From a virus: a DNA stretch of 21,093 bases. Each line of letters starts with the position of its first letter. Within the stretch, counting starts at the first letter, position 1. The stretch is from the IMG/VR virus record IMGVR_UViG_3300025137_006726, positions 1-21,093 of that record. The stretch is one strand, 5' to 3'. This document shows positions 10,119 through 21,093 of this stretch, piece after piece. The notes under the pieces are model-generated. The model made no database searches and was not told the DNA's origin. It worked only from the letters and a program-made list of their open reading frames with translations. The position numbers were made by a program, and so were the translations under genes.

Positions 10119-11344
10119 TAGTTTCTTCCCGGTTTATCCCATCCTTTTAATATATCGGGTGAAAAGTTGTTATATGAAAATTCCATACGATCAACAATTT
10201 TCACTGCATCACCACCAAGTTTGTCAATAGCAACGTAACCTTCTTCTCCAGTTACTTTGTATCCATTACCAGTTCTGACAAAAGTCTTTACTTTACTCAG
10301 TTTATTAAGAGTATTTATAAGTTTTAGTTTGGCCAATACAATAAGTTTTTGTAAGTCAAATATCTTTTTTAATCCTACTTTATTACTTGTAGAAAAGAAT
10401 TCTAGTATATTATCTAACCGCTGCTGCTGAGCTTTCTTCCCTCGTTCCGACTTACGCGAGGATATCTCTTTTGCGTATCGTAGTTTAATCCAACGTATGA
10501 GCTGGGATACGTGTCGTCCTGTGTCTCCAACAACTTGTCCTTTTCGGACATAGGTATTATTGAATGTTTCAATGAGGCGCGATAGCTCATCCGATTTCTC
10601 GAGCGTCCTGAGTGTTGATCCTGAGATTTGGTTAAATAGTTTACCAGCTTGCGAAAGATATTCATTGACTTTCTCCGTATCACTTTTTGACATAGTTACA
10701 TTTGTTAGATCCCTGAGCATTGCGTCTTGCGACCACACAGCTCTGGTTGACTTGAACTTGGAAACGTCAACTCCGTATGAAGCTCGCATAGAAGGGAAGG
10801 TGTTACCTTTATAGGTTGTATGCCAGACAATTCCAATTTTTGATTTCTTAATAGCTGCAGCTCCAGGCGACTTGCTTGGCACCGCATAAACGATAGTGTT
10901 AGGATGAAATGTAAGATATTCTTCTCCATTTATTTTTTTCTTTTTGACATCACCAGGTCCATAAAGAAAGTCTCCTTGTACAACATCTTTGATTCCTAAT
11001 GCAGGAAGAAGCTTTAGTGCGGTGCGAAGCTTATCAGCCAGATCGCCTGAAGTATCAGCATCCACGTCAGCGGGAGTTTTATATACTTTTGGATTCTTAT
11101 TGAATATTCCTTTTTTAGCGACAAAGAACTTTCCATCAGATGGATCAATGCCAGCAAAGATAGCAGGAGCGCCATCCCACTTAACAGATACACTACCATC
11201 GTGTTCTCCTCTCAACATATCTCTTAGCTCTCTGAGAGCCAGTATAGCTTGACGGGTTCCATTGACTCCACCATAGATAACTTTATCCTCTATGTGTGTC
11301 ATATGAGTATTTTTTTCTTCGGTTATATATTCAGCAAAACGCAT
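10118..11344 (-). CDS. Ligase-like covalent nucleotidyltransferase (DUF6267-type)
   Basis: A 408-aa protein conserved in marine T4-like phages. Residues 52-62 read VSVKWDGAPAI; the KWDG at 55-58 matches motif I (KxDG) of the DNA/RNA ligase and capping-enzyme superfamily, with K55 as the candidate AMP-accepting lysine. Later conserved-looking strands are GKFFVAKKGIF (71-81), VVQGDFLYG (121-129) and KIGIVWHTTYKG (169-180), in an order compatible with ligase motifs III-V. The C-terminal 200 residues are helical and Lys-rich. Ligase or related activity is inferred from motif I and has not, to my knowledge, been shown. Overlaps by one base at both ends place it in the late unit. Confidence 0.78.
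   Translation of the reverse strand: MRFAEYITEEKNTHMTHIEDKVIYGGVNGTRQAILALRELRDMLRGEHDGSVSVKWDGAPAIFAGIDPSDGKFFVAKKGIFNKNPKVYKTPADVDADTSGDLADKLRTALKLLPALGIKDVVQGDFLYGPGDVKKKKINGEEYLTFHPNTIVYAVPSKSPGAAAIKKSKIGIVWHTTYKGNTFPSMRASYGVDVSKFKSTRAVWSQDAMLRDLTNVTMSKSDTEKVNEYLSQAGKLFNQISGSTLRTLEKSDELSRLIETFNNTYVRKGQVVGDTGRHVSQLIRWIKLRYAKEISSRKSERGKKAQQQRLDNILEFFSTSNKVGLKKIFDLQKLIVLAKLKLINTLNKLSKVKTFVRTGNGYKVTGEEGYVAIDKLGGDAVKIVDRMEFSYNNFSPDILKGWDKPGRN
10312..10319 (-). promoter_or_regulatory. Possible internal T4-type late promoter
   Basis: An exact TATAAATA on the minus strand inside the ligase-like gene, about 190 nt upstream of the basic helical protein. Position and sequence would allow late transcription of the following genes. 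Its intragenic location and the AT-rich sequence make chance occurrence a real alternative. Confidence 0.25.
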
Positions 11345-12681
11345 TAGCTTACCTTTAAAAACATAGAACTTATTTCTGTTGAAGATGCTGCATAAGATAT
11401 AACAGCAGCGAGTATTTCATCCCTTTTCTTCTTAGTCAGTTTTGAAATAGCTGTAACCACATCAGAAGATTGTAATTTAGATATTACATAAGTCAGAGCA
11501 TTTGGTTTGGATTCTATTGCTTTACCAAGAGTTACTGCATTAAATCTTTTAGCTTGTTGTGGTTCTAATCTTTTCATTCTATCATATAACATTTCATAAA
11601 CTTGGGATGGTTTACTTTTATACAATGCAGATATCTGTTGATGAGTCATTGGATTAAATCTTCTGTCAAATCTTCTAACAATATTAAACAATGGACCTGA
11701 ACCAACTTTACCACCTTGAGCTAGCGCGCCGTTTATTTCTGCACTAATACTTTCTGGTCTTCCAAATGATCTTAGCACAAACGATCCTGTGCTATCACCT
11801 TTAAAGTGAACTGTAGCGTTAATAGCTTTCTCGAATCCTGTTTTGCCAGTATCAAATCTCAAATAAAATATATCAGTTTTCTGACCATCATTATATATTT
11901 CTGTCTTAGCAGTCCTTCCAACTTGTTTTAAAGAAACCCCCATCACGGTTTTCTTTCTAAAGTTTTCTGCGATCCATTCATTGAGATCTAATATACTTTT
12001 AAATTGATTGAAATTAGTATTAGCAAAAGAAGGTTTTACTAACCAAATGTCTGCTGGATTCCATTTATCTAAACCCATCACATGACCAGATTCTTTTATA
12101 AGTTGTTTGGCTCTTGTAGAAATAGCCCGCTCAAACTTGCTTCCAGATCTTTGGTGAACTTGTAGCTTTGAGCTCTTGAGCATAGGATATAGTTTTTCAG
12201 CAATCACAGTAGAACTACTCACCCAACCAGGACTTGCTTTTTGTAACAATGCAGAAGCTTTGTGTTTTGAAAAAGTAACACTCTCTCCAAATTTTGTTAA
12301 ATCCTCTTCTGAAAAATCTGTATTAGGATTACCTAACTTAGTGACTATGAAAAGACCTGCTAAGGTTTCTTGCTCATCGGTTGTTAATCCTTTTGATTGG
12401 TCTGGTTTTACACCAACTAATATATCTTTGTAAGGACCTTTATCAAATCTTATTCCACCCATGGAGGATATAGCTCTCATGACCTCAGGACTTTTATCCA
12501 CAAACCCACCTAGTTTTTTTTCTAAGTTTGCCATAGCTGACATTCTATCTGATTTAGGAACGTAAACAAGTACTTTTTTTCTGGTGGGTGTCTGAAATTT
12601 ATTATAACCAATCTTTTTAAGATGGCTAAGTAACTTATCCATGTCTGTACTTTCTTTAAGATATTGATCTAGTCGAATCAT
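11344..12681 (-). CDS. Phage protein with a possible PD-(D/E)XK-like core
   Basis: A 445-aa protein, first gene of the late unit. The central part has TTDEQETLAGLFIV (about 100-113), then WNPADIWLV with D211, then MGVSLKQVG with K252 (247-255). A helix Glu followed by a D and an x-L-K strand is the order expected of PD-(D/E)XK nuclease folds, with Ser in place of the usual second acid. I also associate 'PADIW...GVSLK' with conserved phage proteins. No helicase or HNH motif is seen. The C-terminal 130 residues are helical. Nuclease function is a tentative inference. AGGTG 7 nt upstream supports the start, which lies just below a late promoter box. Confidence 0.72.
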   Translation of the reverse strand: MIRLDQYLKESTDMDKLLSHLKKIGYNKFQTPTRKKVLVYVPKSDRMSAMANLEKKLGGFVDKSPEVMRAISSMGGIRFDKGPYKDILVGVKPDQSKGLTTDEQETLAGLFIVTKLGNPNTDFSEEDLTKFGESVTFSKHKASALLQKASPGWVSSSTVIAEKLYPMLKSSKLQVHQRSGSKFERAISTRAKQLIKESGHVMGLDKWNPADIWLVKPSFANTNFNQFKSILDLNEWIAENFRKKTVMGVSLKQVGRTAKTEIYNDGQKTDIFYLRFDTGKTGFEKAINATVHFKGDSTGSFVLRSFGRPESISAEINGALAQGGKVGSGPLFNIVRRFDRRFNPMTHQQISALYKSKPSQVYEMLYDRMKRLEPQQAKRFNAVTLGKAIESKPNALTYVISKLQSSDVVTAISKLTKKKRDEILAAVISYAASSTEISSMFLKVS

Positions 12682-14154: not shown

Positions 14155-14183
14155 AGTATAGTATATTCTTAAAGTAAGGTCAA
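14155..14183 (-). promoter_or_regulatory. Early-type sigma70 promoter of the DUF932 unit
   Basis: TTGACC and TATACT are separated by exactly 17 nt on the minus strand, upstream of the DUF932 gene. The -35 and spacer lie in the last codons of the PEP carboxykinase gene. The whole segment (CTGTTGACCTTACTTTAAGA...) closely resembles the promoter at 17640-17668, suggesting a shared phage early promoter. Confidence 0.75.
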
Positions 14184-15362
14184 CAGTTTATTTTGAATTT
14201 CTTCAGAAATATCTTCTGCATCTAAATCTATTGCCGACTTCACACAAGTTCTAGTAAAGTCTAATGGAAATCTATTACCGTTAGGATCCATGCCAGAATT
14301 AATTAAATATACATTGCAGTTATTCTTCTCAATCTTTTCCATTAACAGATCACTATAAACATTTATATGTCTTGGCATAAATGGGGATCCATAACAAGGA
14401 GAAAAGATCTTTTTAATTTCAGTAGTGCCAGCTTCAGTACCTGGCATCTGACTTGTATAACCAGTCTCAAAAAACTTACGGACAGTCTCTCCACTTATCT
14501 TGGATGATGGAGGAAAGACACCTTGAGCGTCCATAGTTAGAAAGAATATATTATTTGGATGAGAAAACTGTTGTTGACTGACATGAGCATTCATAACACA
14601 ATTTAAAGGATAGCTCAGACGAGCATTAGCCGCACCAGGATTCTCAACAACTAACGTCTCTCTTTGTTTAGCAAGTTCTACTGCTTCGAATATAGTAGAG
14701 TGAGTTTCTGGAGTTAACCCTTCGCTCTTAGCATAACAACCTGTTTCAATCATTGCTATGCCTTTTTTATTCCACAACACTTCATCATCCGATATCAAAC
14801 CATATTCTGGATCGCTACTAAGTGTGGTCTTGCCAGTACCAGATAACCCAAACATAAGATTAGTTGTATCTTTGTAAGTAAAAGCTGAGCAATGCATAGG
14901 AAGAATATTTTCATCAGGAAGCTCGAAACTGATAATACCAAACACACCTTTTTTGATCTCACCCAGAAAGGTTGTTCCTCCTACCAACATTATCTTTTGA
15001 TCAAGATGAACAAATATTCTAGGAGGGCAATCAATCTCAGTATTATGAATTATCTTCCAATCAGATAAGTGTTCATTAGGATCATCAGGATCAGAAACAA
15101 CAGGAAACATATTACGAACAAACTGAGCATGTCTATCATCATTTGTCATTACACTAAAACATCTACCAGATGAATAAAACTTTAGATAATGTTTGTAATC
15201 ATAATCATTTAGATCTTCAAAGAATTCCCAATAGTCAGCTTCTTTTCCAACCTTATTGTACTTTGGTCTACTCAGATCTAACAGTCTTGTTTTGTTACCA
15301 AAGTAGAATTTGTTTTCAGGACTGCGGCCTGTAGGATGAGTAGTTATTTCAATGTTGGGCAT
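14169..15362 (-). CDS. pckA: Compact phosphoenolpyruvate carboxykinase (ATP)
   Basis: Catalyses oxaloacetate + ATP to PEP + CO2 + ADP (EC 4.1.1.49), the entry step of gluconeogenesis. Visible elements are TGRSP with R13, GEIKKG (K137, K138), MHCSA with H157, the P-loop GLSGTGKT (172-179), SDDE (D192, D193) for the second metal motif, the ETGCYAK segment, ARLSYP with R248, and NRFPLDFTRT, the counterpart of the nucleotide-binding GKRISIKDTR of E. coli. At 397 aa it is far shorter than the usual 520-540 aa: both the N-terminal region and roughly 90-100 residues at the C-terminus are missing, yet the active-site set is retained. The residue matching E. coli Tyr207 appears to be Phe132. It overlaps kdsA by 14 nt. 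Confidence 0.93.
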   Translation of the reverse strand: MPNIEITTHPTGRSPENKFYFGNKTRLLDLSRPKYNKVGKEADYWEFFEDLNDYDYKHYLKFYSSGRCFSVMTNDDRHAQFVRNMFPVVSDPDDPNEHLSDWKIIHNTEIDCPPRIFVHLDQKIMLVGGTTFLGEIKKGVFGIISFELPDENILPMHCSAFTYKDTTNLMFGLSGTGKTTLSSDPEYGLISDDEVLWNKKGIAMIETGCYAKSEGLTPETHSTIFEAVELAKQRETLVVENPGAANARLSYPLNCVMNAHVSQQQFSHPNNIFFLTMDAQGVFPPSSKISGETVRKFFETGYTSQMPGTEAGTTEIKKIFSPCYGSPFMPRHINVYSDLLMEKIEKNNCNVYLINSGMDPNGNRFPLDFTRTCVKSAIDLDAEDISEEIQNKLLTLL

Positions 15363-16131
15363 AATTGAATTCCATTATATTATCTACGACTTGATCAAAG
15401 TCTTCTAGTTTAAGCATGTTGGGTCCATCCGATGGGGCATTGTCTGGATCAGAATGCACTTCTAAGAAGAAGTTAGATATGCCCAAAGCAGAAGCAGCAC
15501 GAGTAAGCCCTGGGACCCAAGCACGATTGCCACCTGAACTTTCACCGCTTCCTCCAGGTTTCTGGCAGGAGTGTGTTGCATCAAATACAATCGGAACGCT
15601 ATAGTTATCAAGCATGTACTGCAAACCATTAAAATCGACAACAAGATTATTATAACCAAAACTAGTACCTCTTTCAGTTATCCAGACTTCTTTTGCTTTC
15701 TTTGTTTTACTTAGTATACCATTAACATCCCATGGAGCTAAGAACTGACCTTTTTTAATATTAACAATACAATCTGTTTTACATGCTTCAAGTATCAAGT
15801 CTGTTTGTCTACAGAGAAAAGCAGGTATCTGTAATACATCTACTGCACTATAATATCCATAACATAATGCTCTAATTTGATCAACCGTATGGACATCAGT
15901 AAGAATTTTAAGACCTGATAGTTCATTTTTAAGGTCTATAAAAGCATGGTGAGTTGGTATTAATCCTAATCCTCTTTCACCATCCATAGATGTTCTATTT
16001 GCCTTATCAAAGCTAGCCTTGAAGTAATAATCAACACCATACTTATCACATACTTGCTTACAATGCTCAGCGATCTCACCTGATCTTCCTATGCTTTCAT
16101 GTTGGCAAGGGCCAGCAATAATTCTAACCAT
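15349..16131 (-). CDS. kdsA: KdsA, 3-deoxy-8-phosphooctulonate (KDO-8-P) synthase, metal-dependent type
   Basis: Condenses PEP with arabinose 5-phosphate to KDO-8-phosphate (EC 2.5.1.55), the first committed step to the LPS sugar KDO. Signatures are IIAGPC (C9), FKASFDKANRTS (37-48), LTDVH (77-81), QIPAFLCRQTDL (101-112), NIKKGQFLAPWD (124-135), ERGTSFGYNNLVVD (153-166), DATHS with H187, and E224 and D235. C9/H187/E224/D235 match the four metal ligands of the Aquifex-type enzyme, whereas the E. coli enzyme has Asn at the first position. At 260 aa it is normal length, apparently complete and probably functional. It overlaps aldolase (8 nt) and pckA (14 nt), so the three are probably translated together. 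DAHP synthase is unlikely given the KANRTS motif. Confidence 0.94.
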   Translation of the reverse strand: MVRIIAGPCQHESIGRSGEIAEHCKQVCDKYGVDYYFKASFDKANRTSMDGERGLGLIPTHHAFIDLKNELSGLKILTDVHTVDQIRALCYGYYSAVDVLQIPAFLCRQTDLILEACKTDCIVNIKKGQFLAPWDVNGILSKTKKAKEVWITERGTSFGYNNLVVDFNGLQYMLDNYSVPIVFDATHSCQKPGGSGESSGGNRAWVPGLTRAASALGISNFFLEVHSDPDNAPSDGPNMLKLEDFDQVVDNIMEFNYAQH

Positions 16132-16921
16132 TAGAAGCAGTCTTTATCATAACAATGTTCTCTCCAATAGTATTATTGAAAGTTTTTTCATCCATATCTT
16201 TCATGAGCCTTTCACTTAACGCTCTAGAAAAGCTTGCTGTCATTCCATTGTTCACCACTAATCTTCTACATGCTTGCTTAGTAGTGTAACCTCCACTAAG
16301 ACCGACTACTTTCTCAATACGATCGTGACTCATCAATGGTTTGTATAAGTTGGGAACTTCTGGTAGTGTAAGTTTAAGAATACATCGTCCTTTAAATATT
16401 TCTAGTTTTTCTCCCAACTCATGAAGTAATGCTTCCTCCAGATATTTTTTTTCTGGATGGTTAATTGGGATCTCAGGTTCAACAATGGGCATAAGTCCTG
16501 CCTCGGATACCACCTCTGCAATAGCTAATTGCTGAGTTAATATCATATCCATATCTTTTACGTCTTTAAGAATACTGCGCATCTTAGTACCATTGCAGTT
16601 ATGTTCTTGAGCGTAATTAACCATGTCGCTCCATCTAAAATATTTTAGATAGCCATTTTCCTCTACACCACTATCAATTTTTAAATAAGACTGAATTCCT
16701 TTTTGTTTTAATATTGGTACCATACCACGATCGACAGTATCTTTGTACAAGATCGCTGCCCAGATGTTATCAGATACAAACATGGGAGAGTTTACCATAC
16801 GAAGTCTCATCTGATGAACTTTATCCATCTTATCATCTTCTGTAAACTCTTCACCATATCTTTCTAAAACACCTCCGGTAGAACCTCCAGAGTGATCCAT
16901 TGCTGCAATGAACTTACTCAT
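16124..16921 (-). CDS. fda: Class I fructose-1,6-bisphosphate aldolase
   Basis: Reversible cleavage of fructose 1,6-bisphosphate to DHAP and glyceraldehyde 3-phosphate (EC 4.1.2.13). This 265-aa protein follows the bacterial class I type known from Staphylococcus. Its motifs are FIAAMDHSGGST (4-15), LKID (80-83), NGTKMRSIL (110-118), PIVEPEIPI (145-153) with the catalytic Glu pair, ILKLTLPEV (181-189) with Schiff-base Lys183, VGLSGGYT (206-213) and TASFSRAL (228-235) for phosphate binding. It is somewhat shorter than the roughly 295-aa bacterial enzymes, mainly by compaction. No metal-dependent (class II) motifs are present. Its start overlaps the 51-aa membrane protein gene by 8 nt. In this operon it sits upstream of kdsA and pckA. 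Confidence 0.92.
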   Translation of the reverse strand: MSKFIAAMDHSGGSTGGVLERYGEEFTEDDKMDKVHQMRLRMVNSPMFVSDNIWAAILYKDTVDRGMVPILKQKGIQSYLKIDSGVEENGYLKYFRWSDMVNYAQEHNCNGTKMRSILKDVKDMDMILTQQLAIAEVVSEAGLMPIVEPEIPINHPEKKYLEEALLHELGEKLEIFKGRCILKLTLPEVPNLYKPLMSHDRIEKVVGLSGGYTTKQACRRLVVNNGMTASFSRALSERLMKDMDEKTFNNTIGENIVMIKTASNG

Positions 16922-17069
16922 TTGGCATGGCTTCTAATGCAGCTTCAATTTTATCTAAGTTATTCTCTATGCTAGTAAGTCTATTTTCTATTTCATCTGC
17001 TACTATAAAAGATAGTACCAAAGCAACAGCTAGCATACTCCAAAAAATATATGGAAAATATTTACTCAT
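16914..17069 (-). CDS. 51-aa single-span membrane protein
   Basis: A small frame with a very strong ribosome site (GGAGG, 8 nt before ATG). The sequence begins MSKYFPYIFWSMLAVALVLS, giving one membrane segment at about residues 6-24, then a short charged heptad-like helix (NRLTSIENNLDKIEAALEAM). It overlaps HAD by one base (TAATG) and aldolase by 8 nt. The family is not recognised. It could be a membrane-anchored partner of the neighbouring enzymes, or unrelated and inserted into the operon. Confidence 0.75.
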   Translation of the reverse strand: MSKYFPYIFWSMLAVALVLSFIVADEIENRLTSIENNLDKIEAALEAMPNE

Positions 17070-17395
17070 TAATAACCTCCTGTATCTCTAAAAAAGTCTT
17101 CGGACCAAAATGCTTTATCATCAATCCAAATGTCATAGTTTTCTTTTTGACCAACGCTGAGTTCATGATACTTACATCCCCATGCCCACAATTGTTCTTT
17201 AGTAAGATCGTAATAGTCAACACCACTAACACATCCTCTCGCAGTCATATACTTGATTGTGTGTCCTAATGTATACAATCTATTAACTTTACGGATTCGT
17301 TTCATAATAGGTATATGGTTTGCATAATCCTTTTTACCATTTTCAAGAAGTACTTCTTCACAAATGGTTCCGTCAATATCAATTACATATTTCAT
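17069..17395 (-). CDS. HAD-superfamily phosphatase (sugar-phosphate type)
   Basis: A minimal 108-aa haloacid dehalogenase-fold phosphohydrolase. Motif I is VIDIDGTIC with nucleophile D6 and acid/base D8, motif II is YMTARG (T51), Lys84 is the likely motif III residue, and motif IV is WIDDKA (D92, D93). It lacks a cap domain. Very similar small HADs occur in phages and in bacterial capsule or LPS gene clusters next to sugar nucleotidyltransferases. The location two genes upstream of kdsA makes KDO-8-P or another sugar phosphate a reasonable substrate, but KdsC itself is larger, so this is only a hypothesis. It could equally be a 5'-nucleotidase-like enzyme. Confidence 0.85.
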   Translation of the reverse strand: MKYVIDIDGTICEEVLLENGKKDYANHIPIMKRIRKVNRLYTLGHTIKYMTARGCVSGVDYYDLTKEQLWAWGCKYHELSVGQKENYDIWIDDKAFWSEDFFRDTGGY

Positions 17396-17613
17396 TACGT
17401 CCTTTCCAATCTATTAGCGCAATATTCCATGTCCATGTAGTCATTCATTTCACGCTCTTCACGCTCAATGTTTTTTTCCAGTTCTTCACAAAGCTCAAAC
17501 AACTCGATAACAATCGAAGTGCGAGTCTTGCCGTACTTATGAGCTCTGCGAGCTAGACTAGACAATTTCTTTTTCATTGTCATTGCATCTTGAATATCTC
17601 TAACTATAATCAT
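17395..17613 (-). CDS. 72-aa helical protein of unknown function
   Basis: First gene of the metabolic operon. The product is predicted to be all-helical with a basic N-terminal half (MKKKLSSLARRAHKYGKT) and a very acidic middle (ELFELCEELEKNIEREEREM). The chosen start at 17613 has AAGGAG 6 nt upstream; in-frame ATGs at 17616 and 17628 are alternatives giving up to 77 aa. The stop shares one base with the HAD start. No family is recognised. A regulatory or adaptor role cannot be excluded. Confidence 0.65.
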   Translation of the reverse strand: MIIVRDIQDAMTMKKKLSSLARRAHKYGKTRTSIVIELFELCEELEKNIEREEREMNDYMDMEYCANRLERT

Positions 17614-17639
17614 CATAATCTCCTTCATTTCCTAACACC

Positions 17640-17668
17640 CTTATCGGATATTCTAAACATAAAGTCAA
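17640..17668 (-). promoter_or_regulatory. Early-type sigma70 promoter of the carbon-metabolism operon
   Basis: TTGACT and GATAAG with a 17-nt spacer lie on the minus strand in the 72-nt gap after the GAPDH stop. Sequence around it (CTGTTGACTTTATGTTTAGA, then ATATCC...AAGGG) closely resembles the DUF932 promoter. It would drive the 72-aa, HAD, membrane, aldolase, kdsA and pckA genes. Confidence 0.65.
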
Positions 17669-17685
17669 CAGTTAATTTACTTTTA

Positions 17686-18648
17686 TTACAAATAACCTAT
17701 GTATGATGCTGTATCAGCCATTCGACAACTAAATGCCCATTCATTGTCATACCATCCTAACACACGACCCATATGTTTATCAATTACTTGTGTTTGATCT
17801 GAAGCAATAATACAACTCTCAGAAGTGTGATTATAATCAATACTTACTAATGGCTGAGTCTCATATCCTAAGACACCGTTCATATAATGATGAGAATATT
17901 TGGCAAAGGCTAGATTAACTTCTCTTTCAGTTAATTCAGTTTCTGATTGGAAAGTAAAATCTACACAGCTCACATTAGCTGTTGGAACTCTGATAGCACT
18001 GCCTGTTAGTTTACCTTGCAGTTCAGGTATTATCTTTCCTATGTTTTTTGTAGCACCAGTGCTGGTAGGTATCATACTCATACCTGCTGTTCTTGCTCGA
18101 TAGGGATCTTTGTGTCTACGATCAACTGTACTTTGATCTCCAGTGTATGAATGCACAGTTGTCATTACACCTCTTTTTATTCCAAACTCTTTATGCAATA
18201 CTAAGGCCATAGGCGCAAGACAATTTGTAGTACAACTGGCATTACTAATGATATTTTCACTAGGTAACACTTCTGTATGGTTAACTCCATACACTACAGT
18301 TCTATCTACATTTTTTGCAGGAGCGCTGATTAGAACTTTGCTTGCACCATTGCTAATATGTGCCTTTGCGAGCTCACCATCATTGAACGCTCCTGTGCAC
18401 TCCAATACTATATCTACTCCACTCCAGTCACACTTCTTTATATCTCTTGTATGACTCCACTTTACTTTATCACTAAGCTTACCTCTCCATCTTCCATGTA
18501 TACTATCATAATGTAAAAGATGACTATTGGAATCATAATCACCTGAAGCATTTATCTTAACAATTTCTAAATCGTTTCGTTCATCTAAGATGTGACGAGC
18601 AACGCATCGACCTATCCTACCAAATCCATTTATACCAATTCTTACCAT
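17686..18648 (-). CDS. gap: Glyceraldehyde-3-phosphate dehydrogenase
   Basis: Interconverts glyceraldehyde 3-phosphate and 1,3-bisphosphoglycerate (EC 1.2.1.12/13). At 320 aa it is near full length. Visible elements are the Rossmann start MVRIGINGFGRIGR, the catalytic SNASCTTN with C139, the active-site H166 in TTVHSYTGDQ, the IPTSTGATK segment (193-201) and the C-terminal GWYDNEWAFS. The position after the second strand, usually Asp in NAD-specific enzymes (IND), is Ala34 (KINASGD), and the usual Pro of the DLPHKD segment is Arg178 (DRRHKD); both changes suggest relaxed or NADP(H) specificity. A TATATAAAATA stretch (18663-18673) in the divergent gap is a possible promoter element. No strong Shine-Dalgarno is seen. 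Confidence 0.93.
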   Translation of the reverse strand: MVRIGINGFGRIGRCVARHILDERNDLEIVKINASGDYDSNSHLLHYDSIHGRWRGKLSDKVKWSHTRDIKKCDWSGVDIVLECTGAFNDGELAKAHISNGASKVLISAPAKNVDRTVVYGVNHTEVLPSENIISNASCTTNCLAPMALVLHKEFGIKRGVMTTVHSYTGDQSTVDRRHKDPYRARTAGMSMIPTSTGATKNIGKIIPELQGKLTGSAIRVPTANVSCVDFTFQSETELTEREVNLAFAKYSHHYMNGVLGYETQPLVSIDYNHTSESCIIASDQTQVIDKHMGRVLGWYDNEWAFSCRMADTASYIGYL

Positions 18649-18687: not shown

Positions 18688-18695
18688 TATAAATA
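18688..18695 (+). promoter_or_regulatory. T4-type late promoter of the plus-strand oxidative unit
   Basis: An exact TATAAATA in the 74-nt divergent gap, 27 nt upstream of the first plus-strand gene, which has AAGGAG 7 nt before its ATG. Being intergenic and correctly placed, it is a good T4-type late promoter candidate. The surrounding sequence is extremely AT-rich, so chance is not excluded. Confidence 0.6.
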
Positions 18696-18722
18696 TATAT
18701 ATTACAAATAAGGAGTAAGATA

Positions 18723-19304
18723 ATGAGTAGATTTGTCAAATCCCTAGAAAATAATAAAGATGCAATTGAAGTATTTGATACAATAAAAGAAATGTATTAT
18801 TTTATAAAAGACTGGGAAGGATTTAGAGCCTCAAAAAGTCAGTTTACTGTAACAGATGACAATCATCATATTGTAGATCAGGAATTTCCTCTTATTGCTG
18901 AGTTTAGAGAAAAGTATAAAATGTCTAACTTTATGCTAGTGATGGAATATTCCAATCCAAACTTCTATACTACCAAGCCTCATTCTCACAATATTGAAAA
19001 TACAACAGGTTCAATATTTTGGCCTATTGTTTATTCTAAATATGCTGCTACATCATTTTATCTACCACCAGAAGAAACTATTGTTGATAGAAATGTCAAA
19101 GGCGCAAATTTTAAACTAAAAGAATCTAATTGGGATAAACCTGAAGAAACTGTTCAACTTCAATATCCAACTGTATTTCATATGAATCATTTTCATAGAC
19201 CTGTAGCATTAGAAGACCACGCTGACAATGCTAAGCGGGTTGTATGCAATTGGGAAGCGAAAAGTGGAGTTTCATATGAAGAATTATCAGAGTTGTTAAG
19301 TTAA
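18723..19304 (+). CDS. Putative double-stranded beta-helix (cupin/2OG oxygenase-like) protein
   Basis: A 193-aa protein leading the plus-strand unit, with a strong AAGGAG site. The first 65 residues are helical. The middle and end look like a beta-rich core: LVMEYSNPNFYTTKPHSHN (72-90) with H87 and H89, SIFWPIVYSKYAATSFYLPP (97-116), and FHMNHFHRPVALEDHADNAK (152-171) followed by RVVCNWEAK. A strand ending in xHxH, and a later His-rich segment next to an Arg-containing strand, are the general pattern of cupin or Fe(II)/2-oxoglutarate folds. No exact HxD...H set can be fixed by eye. The family is therefore tentative; the gene itself is solid. Confidence 0.65.
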   Translation: MSRFVKSLENNKDAIEVFDTIKEMYYFIKDWEGFRASKSQFTVTDDNHHIVDQEFPLIAEFREKYKMSNFMLVMEYSNPNFYTTKPHSHNIENTTGSIFWPIVYSKYAATSFYLPPEETIVDRNVKGANFKLKESNWDKPEETVQLQYPTVFHMNHFHRPVALEDHADNAKRVVCNWEAKSGVSYEELSELLS

Positions 19305-20053
19305 TGAATCACAATACATTAGTGCGCGCGACACAAATACTTAATCACATTTTACTATTAGTGGGATTAAGTTTGATCTTCTTTTATGAGGTTTCAGCTA
19401 TATATCTTTTGTACAGCTTATTCATCTATTGGTTCATAGGTGTGATGGGTATTAACGTAGGATATCATAGACTTATTAGTCATAGAAGTTTTGAAACATA
19501 TAAATGGCTAGAATATACTTTAGGATTGATTGGTTGTATTACAATGATAGGTAGTCCGATTGCATGGACTGCGATACATAGACAACATCATGGCCATGCT
19601 GATACTGATGAAGATGTACACAGCCCTTACAAATTAGGTTGGGTAAAAGCATGGTTTGGTTTTTGGAACATACAACACATTCATCCAAAATATATAAAAG
19701 ATATACGTAAACAAAGTTTTTACAAACTTACACACAAATATTATTTTTTAATTAATATAGTATACGCCGTTACCCTATTTGCGATAAATCCATTACTTGT
19801 AATATTTGCTTATGCTATCCCAACAGTATTAGTATTACACAGTACAAGTGCTATTATTGTAATAGCACACATACATGGATATAAAAATCACAATGTAGAT
19901 GATGAAAGTAGAAATAGTTGGATTGCAAGTTTAATTACGTTAGGAGAAGGTTGGCATAACAACCACCATGCAAATAGTAAAGCATGGAATAATCAAGAAC
20001 GTTGGTGGGAACTTGATCCGCCTGCATGGATAATAAGAGTAATAAAAAAATGA
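19304..20053 (+). CDS. Membrane fatty-acid desaturase (acyl-CoA/acyl-lipid delta-9 type)
   Basis: Diiron integral-membrane desaturase that introduces a double bond into fatty-acyl chains. It has all three histidine boxes: HRLISH (55-60), HRQHH (92-96, followed by GHAD) and HNNHH (218-222, within GEGWHNNHH). Membrane segments lie at about 12-29, 33-50, 70-90, 145-162 and 165-188. At 249 aa it is compact but complete for bacterial and phage desaturases. Related desaturases are known in marine cyanophages. The start shares one base with the preceding stop (TAATG) and the end overlaps the diiron gene by 4 nt. Chain position and lipid substrate cannot be told from the sequence. It could change membrane fluidity during infection. 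Confidence 0.92.
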   Translation: MNHNTLVRATQILNHILLLVGLSLIFFYEVSAIYLLYSLFIYWFIGVMGINVGYHRLISHRSFETYKWLEYTLGLIGCITMIGSPIAWTAIHRQHHGHADTDEDVHSPYKLGWVKAWFGFWNIQHIHPKYIKDIRKQSFYKLTHKYYFLINIVYAVTLFAINPLLVIFAYAIPTVLVLHSTSAIIVIAHIHGYKNHNVDDESRNSWIASLITLGEGWHNNHHANSKAWNNQERWWELDPPAWIIRVIKK

Positions 20054-20631
20054 CAAATGATGATTACTATATGAATCATGTTTACATGAGTGAGTACTGG
20101 CTCTGGCAATACATGTTAAAACATTTTAACAACCATGATAATCCTAGATGGCTTAAACAACTGAGAGACGAAAAAAAGCACAGTGCTATGGCAAGAGGAG
20201 CTTTACGTAAATGTATTCCATTAGATAGCATTATTACAGACCCATCGATAAGTATTGAGAAAGCTATGTTTGAAGGTATTGGAAAACTAGACGTTGACAA
20301 TATTCCAGTAGATCACTTTCCTGCATTTGTGTATGTTGTTGAGAGAAGGGCATGCATGTTATTTAAAGCCTATGTCCGTAAGGGATCAAACGAATATTAT
20401 AAAAAAATGACTAAAAGACTTTTGCATGATGAAGCTGACCATTTAGATATTCACAAGCAATCTGCACAACAGTTAGGTGTGTATGAATACTACTACGAAC
20501 TAGATAAAAAAATATGGAAGGGAATAAGTGAAGCATATTCAGATGGAAAAACCGCATTTTTTGATAACACTCAATACTGGAAAGACTTATTTGCAAATAA
20601 GTTAAAGGATAATGTAAATGTCTTATGTTAA
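20050..20631 (+). CDS. Ferritin-like diiron-carboxylate protein
   Basis: A 193-aa helical protein with the ligand spacing of a diiron four-helix bundle: E15 in YMSEYW, E41xxH44 in DEKKH, E98 in VVERRAC and E128xxH131 in HDEADH. The intervals (26, 3, 54, 30, 3) are close to those of aldehyde-deformylating oxygenase and related ferritin-like oxidases. Which substrate it acts on is unknown; a tRNA hydroxylase (MiaE-like), a fatty-acid or aldehyde oxidase or a simple iron protein are all possible. The start at 20050 is chosen because it overlaps the desaturase stop (ATGA). It overlaps the next gene by 14 nt. Being next to a desaturase hints at lipid-related oxidation. Confidence 0.75.
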   Translation: MTNDDYYMNHVYMSEYWLWQYMLKHFNNHDNPRWLKQLRDEKKHSAMARGALRKCIPLDSIITDPSISIEKAMFEGIGKLDVDNIPVDHFPAFVYVVERRACMLFKAYVRKGSNEYYKKMTKRLLHDEADHLDIHKQSAQQLGVYEYYYELDKKIWKGISEAYSDGKTAFFDNTQYWKDLFANKLKDNVNVLC

Positions 20632-21093
20632 ATTTGCAACAGAAGCAAGTTGGGTAGATCTATCTCAATTTTTTAAAGTACCTGTTGATGAGATACTGAA
20701 TGAAATAATTTTAGTTGAAAGTATGTTTAATGAAGAAAGAGATCAAGTACAGAACAAAAAAATGAAAGAAAGTGGTACCATTGGAATTGGAACTGAAGTC
20801 GATGGCCAGAAAGCTTGGAGTGCAATATCTTTATTAAGTAGATCAGGTAATTATACTGACATATTAACTCAGGGTGTGTTTACAAATGAAACCAAGCAAT
20901 CGTACTTAGGATCGTTTAGAAACATAAGAAGTCATAGTTGGACATCAATATGTGAATATATGCCAATAACAACAAAGTTTATTAAAGAAGAACTTGGATC
21001 ATATATGAAACTTAGTTATGCTAAGATAGCTAAGTTAGAAGCTGGTGGTAACATTCCTATGCATGCTGATCTTCCAGAAGTTGATTTTGATTT
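20618..21093 (+). CDS. 2-oxoglutarate/Fe(II) oxygenase, Asp/Asn beta-hydroxylase-like (3' end outside window)
   Basis: The first 158 codons are present. The N-terminal half is helical (MSYVKFATEASWVDLSQFFK). Near the edge, SYAKIAKLEAGGNIPMHADL (133-152) has an HxD motif (H149, D151) after a Leu-x-x-Gly-Gly-x-Ile-Pro segment. This matches the first metal-ligand strand of aspartyl/asparaginyl beta-hydroxylase-type dioxygenases. The distal His and the Arg that binds 2-oxoglutarate would lie beyond the window. AAGGA 8 nt upstream supports the start, which overlaps the diiron gene by 14 nt. Such oxygenases are common in marine T4-like phages; substrates are mostly unknown. Confidence 0.75.
   Translation, partial: MSYVKFATEASWVDLSQFFKVPVDEILNEIILVESMFNEERDQVQNKKMKESGTIGIGTEVDGQKAWSAISLLSRSGNYTDILTQGVFTNETKQSYLGSFRNIRSHSWTSICEYMPITTKFIKEELGSYMKLSYAKIAKLEAGGNIPMHADLPEVDFD

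Follow-up and report, generated by a model that had tools for sequence, protein, structure and literature searches.

Fatty acid desaturases are a described class of auxiliary genes in viruses (PMC7300359, PMC7678222, PMC7029224). Examples include the viral fatty acid desaturases (vFADs) of sea-ice phages (PMC7300359), a freshwater pelagimyophage stearoyl-CoA desaturase (PMC7029224) and the lipid desaturases of cyanophages (Roitman et al. 2018, as cited in PMC11480375 and PMC7300359). The parts of these papers covered here present each as a lone auxiliary gene that serves membrane fluidity. We analysed a 21,093-base IMG/VR record (IMGVR_UViG_3300025137_006726; this whole stretch is the window) in which a desaturase gene, DESAT, is followed by genes for a ferritin-like diiron protein, FERR, and a 2-oxoglutarate (2OG)/Fe(II) oxygenase, OXY. 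Like the known viral desaturases, DESAT belongs to the PF00487/stearoyl-CoA desaturase (SCD) family, has the histidine boxes and occurs in a marine phage; unlike them, it stands before a FERR-OXY pair, a partner that the same parts of those papers do not describe.

A possibly related arrangement is found in Mosig EXVC030M (L027), where Mosig_00081-00074 place an oxygenase, a desaturase and other redox genes in one plus-strand unit with the octamer TATAAATA and adjoining tail fibres. However, Mosig has no FERR or OXY orthologue and its desaturase is only 28% identical. Host-recognition clusters of pelagimyophages hold glycosyltransferases and radical SAM cassettes, for which changes to the surface of the host have been proposed as a role (PMC7029224); the section covered describes no module of FERR, OXY and c26, the gene that follows OXY in relatives of the window. 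As far as the libraries searched and the papers covered in part show, no description exists of a FERR-OXY-c26 unit combined with an exchangeable desaturase; single viral desaturases and surface-modifying islands are already known.

The DESAT-FERR-OXY cassette

By its sequence the window belongs to a divergent marine T4-like (cyanophage-type) virus, because annotated phage relatives of the protein encoded at 11344-12681 are nearly all from Synechococcus/Prochlorococcus phages (21-28% identity among the matches listed). It ends inside OXY, the last cassette gene. Four plus-strand open reading frames (ORFs; 18723-19304, 19304-20053, 20026-20631 and 20618->21093) each touch or overlap the next and diverge from the GAPDH gene at 17686-18648, with a 74-bp intergenic stretch between, in agreement with the divergent four-gene unit of the first-pass annotation. 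An AAGGAG Shine-Dalgarno-like site (18710-18715, plus strand) precedes gene 1 (193 aa), which meets DESAT in a TAATG junction with a 1-nt overlap. The G+C content of the four ORFs is 31-33%, versus about 34-40% in most adjoining minus-strand genes, a 156-bp ORF at 16914-17069 (30%) being the exception. Together, DESAT, FERR and OXY carry ligands for three different non-haem iron chemistries.

DESAT (19304-20053, 249 aa) matches PF00487 (E = 8.6e-17; 62.2 bits against a gathering cut-off of 29.7), and its best relative in the Protein Data Bank (PDB) is the stearoyl-CoA desaturase 4ymk (1e-13). All three histidine boxes are intact (HRLISH, HRQHH and HNNHH), as had been claimed, and H55/H60, H92/H95/H96, H189 and H218/H221/H222 are kept in 92-100% of 25 viral desaturases. 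Hydrophobic stretches at residues 9-53, 73-91 and 147-190 qualify as transmembrane. These features identify DESAT as an SCD-like membrane fatty acid desaturase, with acyl desaturation as its predicted activity.

As all FERR homologues begin at a methionine equivalent to position 20050, we place the start of FERR there (20050-20631, 193 aa); the start called by the ORF program, 20026, is too early. The corrected start gives a 4-nt ATGA stop-start overlap with DESAT. The ligand pattern E..ExxH..E..ExxH is invariant in five sequences (E23, E49/H52, E106 and E136/H139, numbered from 20026), and the AlphaFold model is a four-helix bundle (pLDDT 86, pTM 0.84). The nearest solved folds are the diiron oxygenases ADO, PaaA-like proteins and R2, none significant alone, and MiaE is among the weak fold matches. 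No named Pfam family matched above its cut-off, with weak matches to Rubrerythrin, DUF455 and Ald_deCOase below it; no other profile library searched gave the FERR family a match above cut-off. With the ligand set present twice on a modelled four-helix bundle, FERR is assigned to the ferritin-like diiron oxidase/oxygenase superfamily, which upholds the original assignment.

OXY (20618 to the contig end at 21093, first 158 codons) is cut by the contig end before the second His and the Arg, so that the fragment has only the HxD part of the metal-binding motif and scores 20.1 bits against PF05118 (Asp_Arg_Hydrox; E = 0.0006; cut-off 22.6). In contrast, full-length relatives carry the complete HxD...H...R and pass this cut-off (E = 3.6e-9 and 2.4e-8; 37.1 and 34.4 bits). 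OXY is 51% identical to its relative in contig L013. Allowing for the truncation, which the first-pass annotation had not recorded, OXY is most probably an Asp_Arg_Hydrox-type 2OG/Fe(II) oxygenase. Its PDB profile matches were to aminopeptidases and were dismissed as chance.

A conserved FERR-OXY pair with an exchangeable desaturase

Relatives of the cassette fall into lineage B (L011-L015 and L032) and lineage C (L029). L013/L015, L014/L032 and L011/L012 are near-duplicate contigs, and the independent evidence therefore consists of three lineages, the window included, with three variants inside B. Profile scans of IMG/VR for FERR and for OXY relied on separate sequence patterns and led to one and the same set of seven other contigs; c26 (an uncharacterised gene of ~187 aa; 186 aa in lineage B) is present in all seven. 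Whole-record searches of 24 records found neither FERR nor OXY without the other; the one exception is a weak match to OXY in a record of 364 kb. The order DESAT-FERR-OXY is kept with its overlaps in the window, lineage B and lineage C: the ATGA overlap between DESAT and FERR is found in the window, L013 and L029, and the overlap between FERR and OXY measures 14 nt in the window and 17 nt in the other two. L011-L015 have a desaturase, a second desaturase, FERR, OXY and c26, with an SGNH/GDSL-like gene (a weak match) ahead of FERR in L011 and L012; L029 has an oxygenase-like gene, a methyltransferase, DESAT, FERR, OXY, a gene for a 215-aa protein and c26. Every FERR-OXY pair found has a desaturase immediately upstream or, in L011 and L012, one small SGNH-like gene away. 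As the rest of the window has almost no counterpart in lineages B and C, this order is not leftover synteny: the tested lineage B stretches have only the cassette in common with it, and lineage C adds only a KdsA gene and a small lipoprotein-like gene.

Independent occurrence of the genes in related phages, with no conserved order, was one outcome that the first-pass annotation had named as refuting its proposal. Three of the four genes withstand this test: FERR and OXY are paired and, with a desaturase ahead of them, fixed in order across three lineages. Gene 1 is refuted by it as a member of the cassette, and the desaturase in part, as a desaturase always lies upstream of FERR-OXY but is also common elsewhere. 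Our scan of viral records returned 25 desaturase loci, most of them without FERR and OXY, alone or as tandem pairs in other marine phages. L019-L024 and L026, from viral records of up to 364 kb, have two divergent desaturases in tandem without FERR; in several of them the two genes overlap by 4 nt.

No relative of FERR was found on plasmids, and a single-sequence scan with FERR gave no match. GTDB scans, based on short patterns that reach only fairly close relatives, found no bacterial FERR or OXY, and a bacterial origin of either is unsupported within that reach. For c26, the protein found beside lone desaturases (c7) was considered as a homologue and showed no similarity, and a by-eye reading as a GNAT acetyltransferase found no match in any library.

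The desaturase of the window has a history of its own. It shares 91% protein identity with a copy in L002 that has neither FERR nor OXY beside it. At the DNA level the similarity (window 19302-20048 against L002:9993-10739; 86% identity) stops at the gene boundaries, whereas FERR and OXY reach no more than about 40-51% identity with their relatives. Because the similarity to L002 covers this gene and nothing more, sequence comparison indicates that DESAT was exchanged as a single gene, between unrelated viral contexts, in front of an old FERR-OXY pair. The desaturases that come just before FERR (before the SGNH-like gene in L011 and L012) share 39% identity between the window and B, 35% between the window and C, and 28% between B and C. 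They form three subfamilies, which fall into separate groups of a tree whose long branches restrict its finer resolution. As three such subfamilies fill the same position, the desaturase slot looks functional. The exchange thus supports the need for a desaturase at this site, yet also shows that the desaturase has an independent life.

This independence bears on the possibility that the transcript joins two unrelated functions, a mobile desaturase acting on host membrane fluidity and a separate FERR-OXY pair. The single-gene exchange, the wide occurrence of DESAT alone and the standing of viral desaturases as an auxiliary class in the papers cited above are all in line with such an arrangement. 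However, chance would not be expected to place an upstream desaturase, drawn from three subfamilies, before every FERR-OXY pair in three lineages, nor to produce the ATGA junction that the window shares with L013 and L029, and we regard two unrelated functions as unlikely.

Candidate substrates of the module

We tentatively propose, with confidence somewhat short of even, that the module carries out successive O2-dependent modification of one envelope molecule, most probably of its acyl chains, and thereby changes the cell surface. DESAT-FERR-OXY, followed by c26 in relatives, would be a phage-borne tailoring module, probably made late in infection. DESAT, a membrane-bound His-box diiron desaturase, would act on an envelope molecule; as DESAT is membrane-embedded, the substrate is probably membrane-associated. 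FERR would be a soluble ferritin-like diiron oxidase or oxygenase acting in succession with DESAT and OXY, and OXY a soluble 2OG/Fe(II) hydroxylase that hydroxylates the acyl chain as LpxO and OlsC do. The acyl chains would most probably be carried by a lipid in the outer membrane, be it lipid A, an amino-lipid or a glycolipid, and the altered surface of the infected cell might act, for example, against superinfection or readsorption. One common substrate, its lipid nature, late timing and a role in surface exclusion are what we infer here; what the sequences show are the superfamily identities, the metal-ligand residues, the gene order with its overlapping frames, the strict pairing of FERR with OXY and the upstream desaturase in three lineages, one of them next to tail fibres.

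Several features point towards lipid. DESAT is SCD-like and membrane-embedded, and the folds nearest to FERR include the fatty-aldehyde oxygenase ADO, which shares with FERR the ferritin-like diiron fold, the E..ExxH..E..ExxH pattern and weak sequence and fold similarity. The unit of L011 and L012 includes the weakly matched SGNH/GDSL-like gene, and a KDO-8-phosphate-synthase-like (KdsA) gene lies near the cassette in the window and in lineage C. The family of OXY, the PF05118 Asp/Asn beta-hydroxylases, includes the acyl hydroxylases LpxO and OlsC (PMC5767591). Both act on membrane acyl chains (lipid A, ornithine lipid), but OXY has no specific match to either and is too remote to assign, and ornithine-lipid synthesis genes were not recognised in the unit.

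Other observations weigh against acyl chains as the substrate. FERR as an ADO was rejected: the lineage C FERR (L029) scores 16.8 bits in NCBIfam TIGR04059, far below the curated cut-off of 222.65, and an acyl-ACP reductase partner was not recognised. For OXY, no NCBIfam acyl-hydroxylase model matched (whether NCBIfam covers LpxO/OlsC was not checked), and its sole, weak NCBIfam match is to a 'sporadic carbohydrate cluster' 2OG oxygenase (E = 0.0045). PF05118 also contains amino-acid and protein hydroxylases. As DESAT is common without FERR and OXY, it may work alone. The lineage B island, discussed below, is richer in sugar and small-molecule genes than in lipid genes. The earlier suggestion that a single substrate, perhaps a lipid, is modified step by step is still an inference: only DESAT points to acyl chains, and FERR and OXY fall into no family of known substrate.

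The genomic setting of lineage B makes a glycan or small-molecule substrate the strongest rival. There, a tail-fibre-like gene whose product has an Mtd_N domain directly precedes the cassette, and the cassette lies in an island of >20 kb with StrB/SxtG-like amidinotransferases (1bwd, 3.8e-20), ATP-grasp and several more 2OG oxygenase genes, together with radical SAM, glycosyltransferase-like and sugar-nucleotide genes recognised by eye. For lineage B, this setting clearly fits a host-recognition cluster of the kind described in pelagimyophages and cyanomyophages (PMC7029224). No tail fibre was identified in the window, which stops at the cassette. The module might tailor a glycan, or a small molecule derived from an amino acid or a sugar (lipopolysaccharide O-chain, core or decoration), instead of acyl chains, with FERR-OXY-c26 as the core pathway and a desaturase-like membrane protein recruited for C-H oxidation or working beside it. 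This rival is the strongest because of the island and the faint similarity of OXY to the carbohydrate-cluster oxygenase; the nearby KdsA gene in the window and lineage C and the invariance of the FERR-OXY pair while desaturases are swapped also agree with it. Nonetheless, a membrane desaturase with complete lipid-desaturase histidine boxes is always upstream, mostly translationally coupled, and neither FERR nor OXY showed any feature of sugar binding. We consider a glycan or small-molecule substrate rather unlikely, and still favour a modified acyl chain.

The adjoining Mtd_N gene, the MiaE fold match of FERR and the protein Asp/Asn hydroxylases within PF05118 could also suggest that FERR-OXY modifies a macromolecule (tRNA, DNA or a tail protein), in the manner of the ferritin-like tRNA hydroxylase MiaE or of 2OG nucleic-acid and protein hydroxylases. 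As this would leave the coupling to a membrane desaturase unexplained, and no specific similarity to any such enzyme was found, we judge it highly improbable.

Viral desaturases are usually read as single fluidity genes; a conserved unit of three O2-dependent iron enzymes suggests a dedicated chemical pathway. It is conceivable, although we hold it doubtful, that FERR-OXY-c26 and its exchangeable desaturase form an undescribed phage-specific pathway that makes a new modified envelope lipid in infected marine bacteria and excludes competing phages. FERR and c26 would then be founding members of new protein families. The module also offers a small, testable gene set for asking on which molecules the numerous oxygenases encoded next to phage tail fibres act.

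Timing, gene 1 and neighbouring genes

The T4-type late-promoter-like octamer TATAAATA lies at 18688-18695 on the plus strand as an exact match, its start 35 nt before the gene 1 ATG and thus at promoter distance. In Mosig EXVC030M the same octamer stands 24-27 nt before tail-fibre genes and 24 nt before the first gene of the oxygenase-desaturase unit. However, its four copies in the window, against 2.56 expected, are no over-representation (a further one lies 30 nt before the minus-strand gene at 12681), and it is not present before the cassette in lineages B and C. Late expression, as originally claimed, is plausible for the window: the octamer is exact, well placed and paralleled in Mosig, although it is neither enriched nor shared by the other lineages.

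The Mosig unit (L027:11366-17619, plus strand, beside tail fibres) contains two Asp_Arg_Hydrox genes, a desaturase, an aminotransferase, an FMN reductase, a peroxiredoxin, a TauD-like dioxygenase, a methylase and an acetyltransferase. As Mosig is a cultured Pelagibacter phage, it is an accessible test system.

Gene 1 (18723-19304, plus strand) is an orphan. It was first described as a possible cupin-type protein belonging to the cassette, and neither part of this description is borne out. It has no significant match in Pfam, PHROG, NCBIfam or the PDB, no phage relative was found, a single-sequence scan was likewise empty, and its AlphaFold model (pLDDT 36) is too poor for judging the fold. Its residues HSH87-89...H158...R172 have HxH where HxD is expected, and its link to HxD...H...R proteins is marginal; at best it may be a double-stranded beta-helix protein of divergent sequence. 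Gene 1 has no clear counterpart in another lineage: the nearest analogue, L029:9281-9925, lies downstream of OXY in lineage C and is only marginally similar (E = 0.003; hhalign 0.013).

The cassette showed no membership of a defence system, and no RNA families or tRNAs were found in the window. The minus strand of the window carries, at 14169-18648, an operon-like run of genes for an ATP-type phosphoenolpyruvate (PEP) carboxykinase, a KdsA/DAHP-synthase-family enzyme, a class I fructose-bisphosphate aldolase (weak match), a small HAD-like protein and GAPDH. This set resembles gluconeogenesis and would supply PEP to a probable KDO-8-phosphate synthase, which is unusual for a phage. Four of the 21 records searched have KdsA relatives: lineage C (L029; L047:2861-3631, 61% identity) and the desaturase-bearing viral records L043, L044 and L045, one of which, of 364 kb, has a KdsA at 48% identity. 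Synechococcus phage S-SCSM2R also has an annotated KdsA.

In lineage B, L056:215-14000, L057 and L032:4083-8370 carry two StrB/SxtG-like amidinotransferases, an ATP-grasp gene, several 2OG oxygenases and repeated radical SAM, PP-loop-like and glycosyltransferase-like genes; this looks like a phage-borne natural-product or glycan pathway. Elsewhere on the minus strand of the window, 641-2869 encodes a protein of 742 aa, similar by eye to class II ribonucleotide reductases and with no relative in eight related records, and an ORF cut by the contig start (3-338) appears by eye to be GIY-YIG endonuclease-like.

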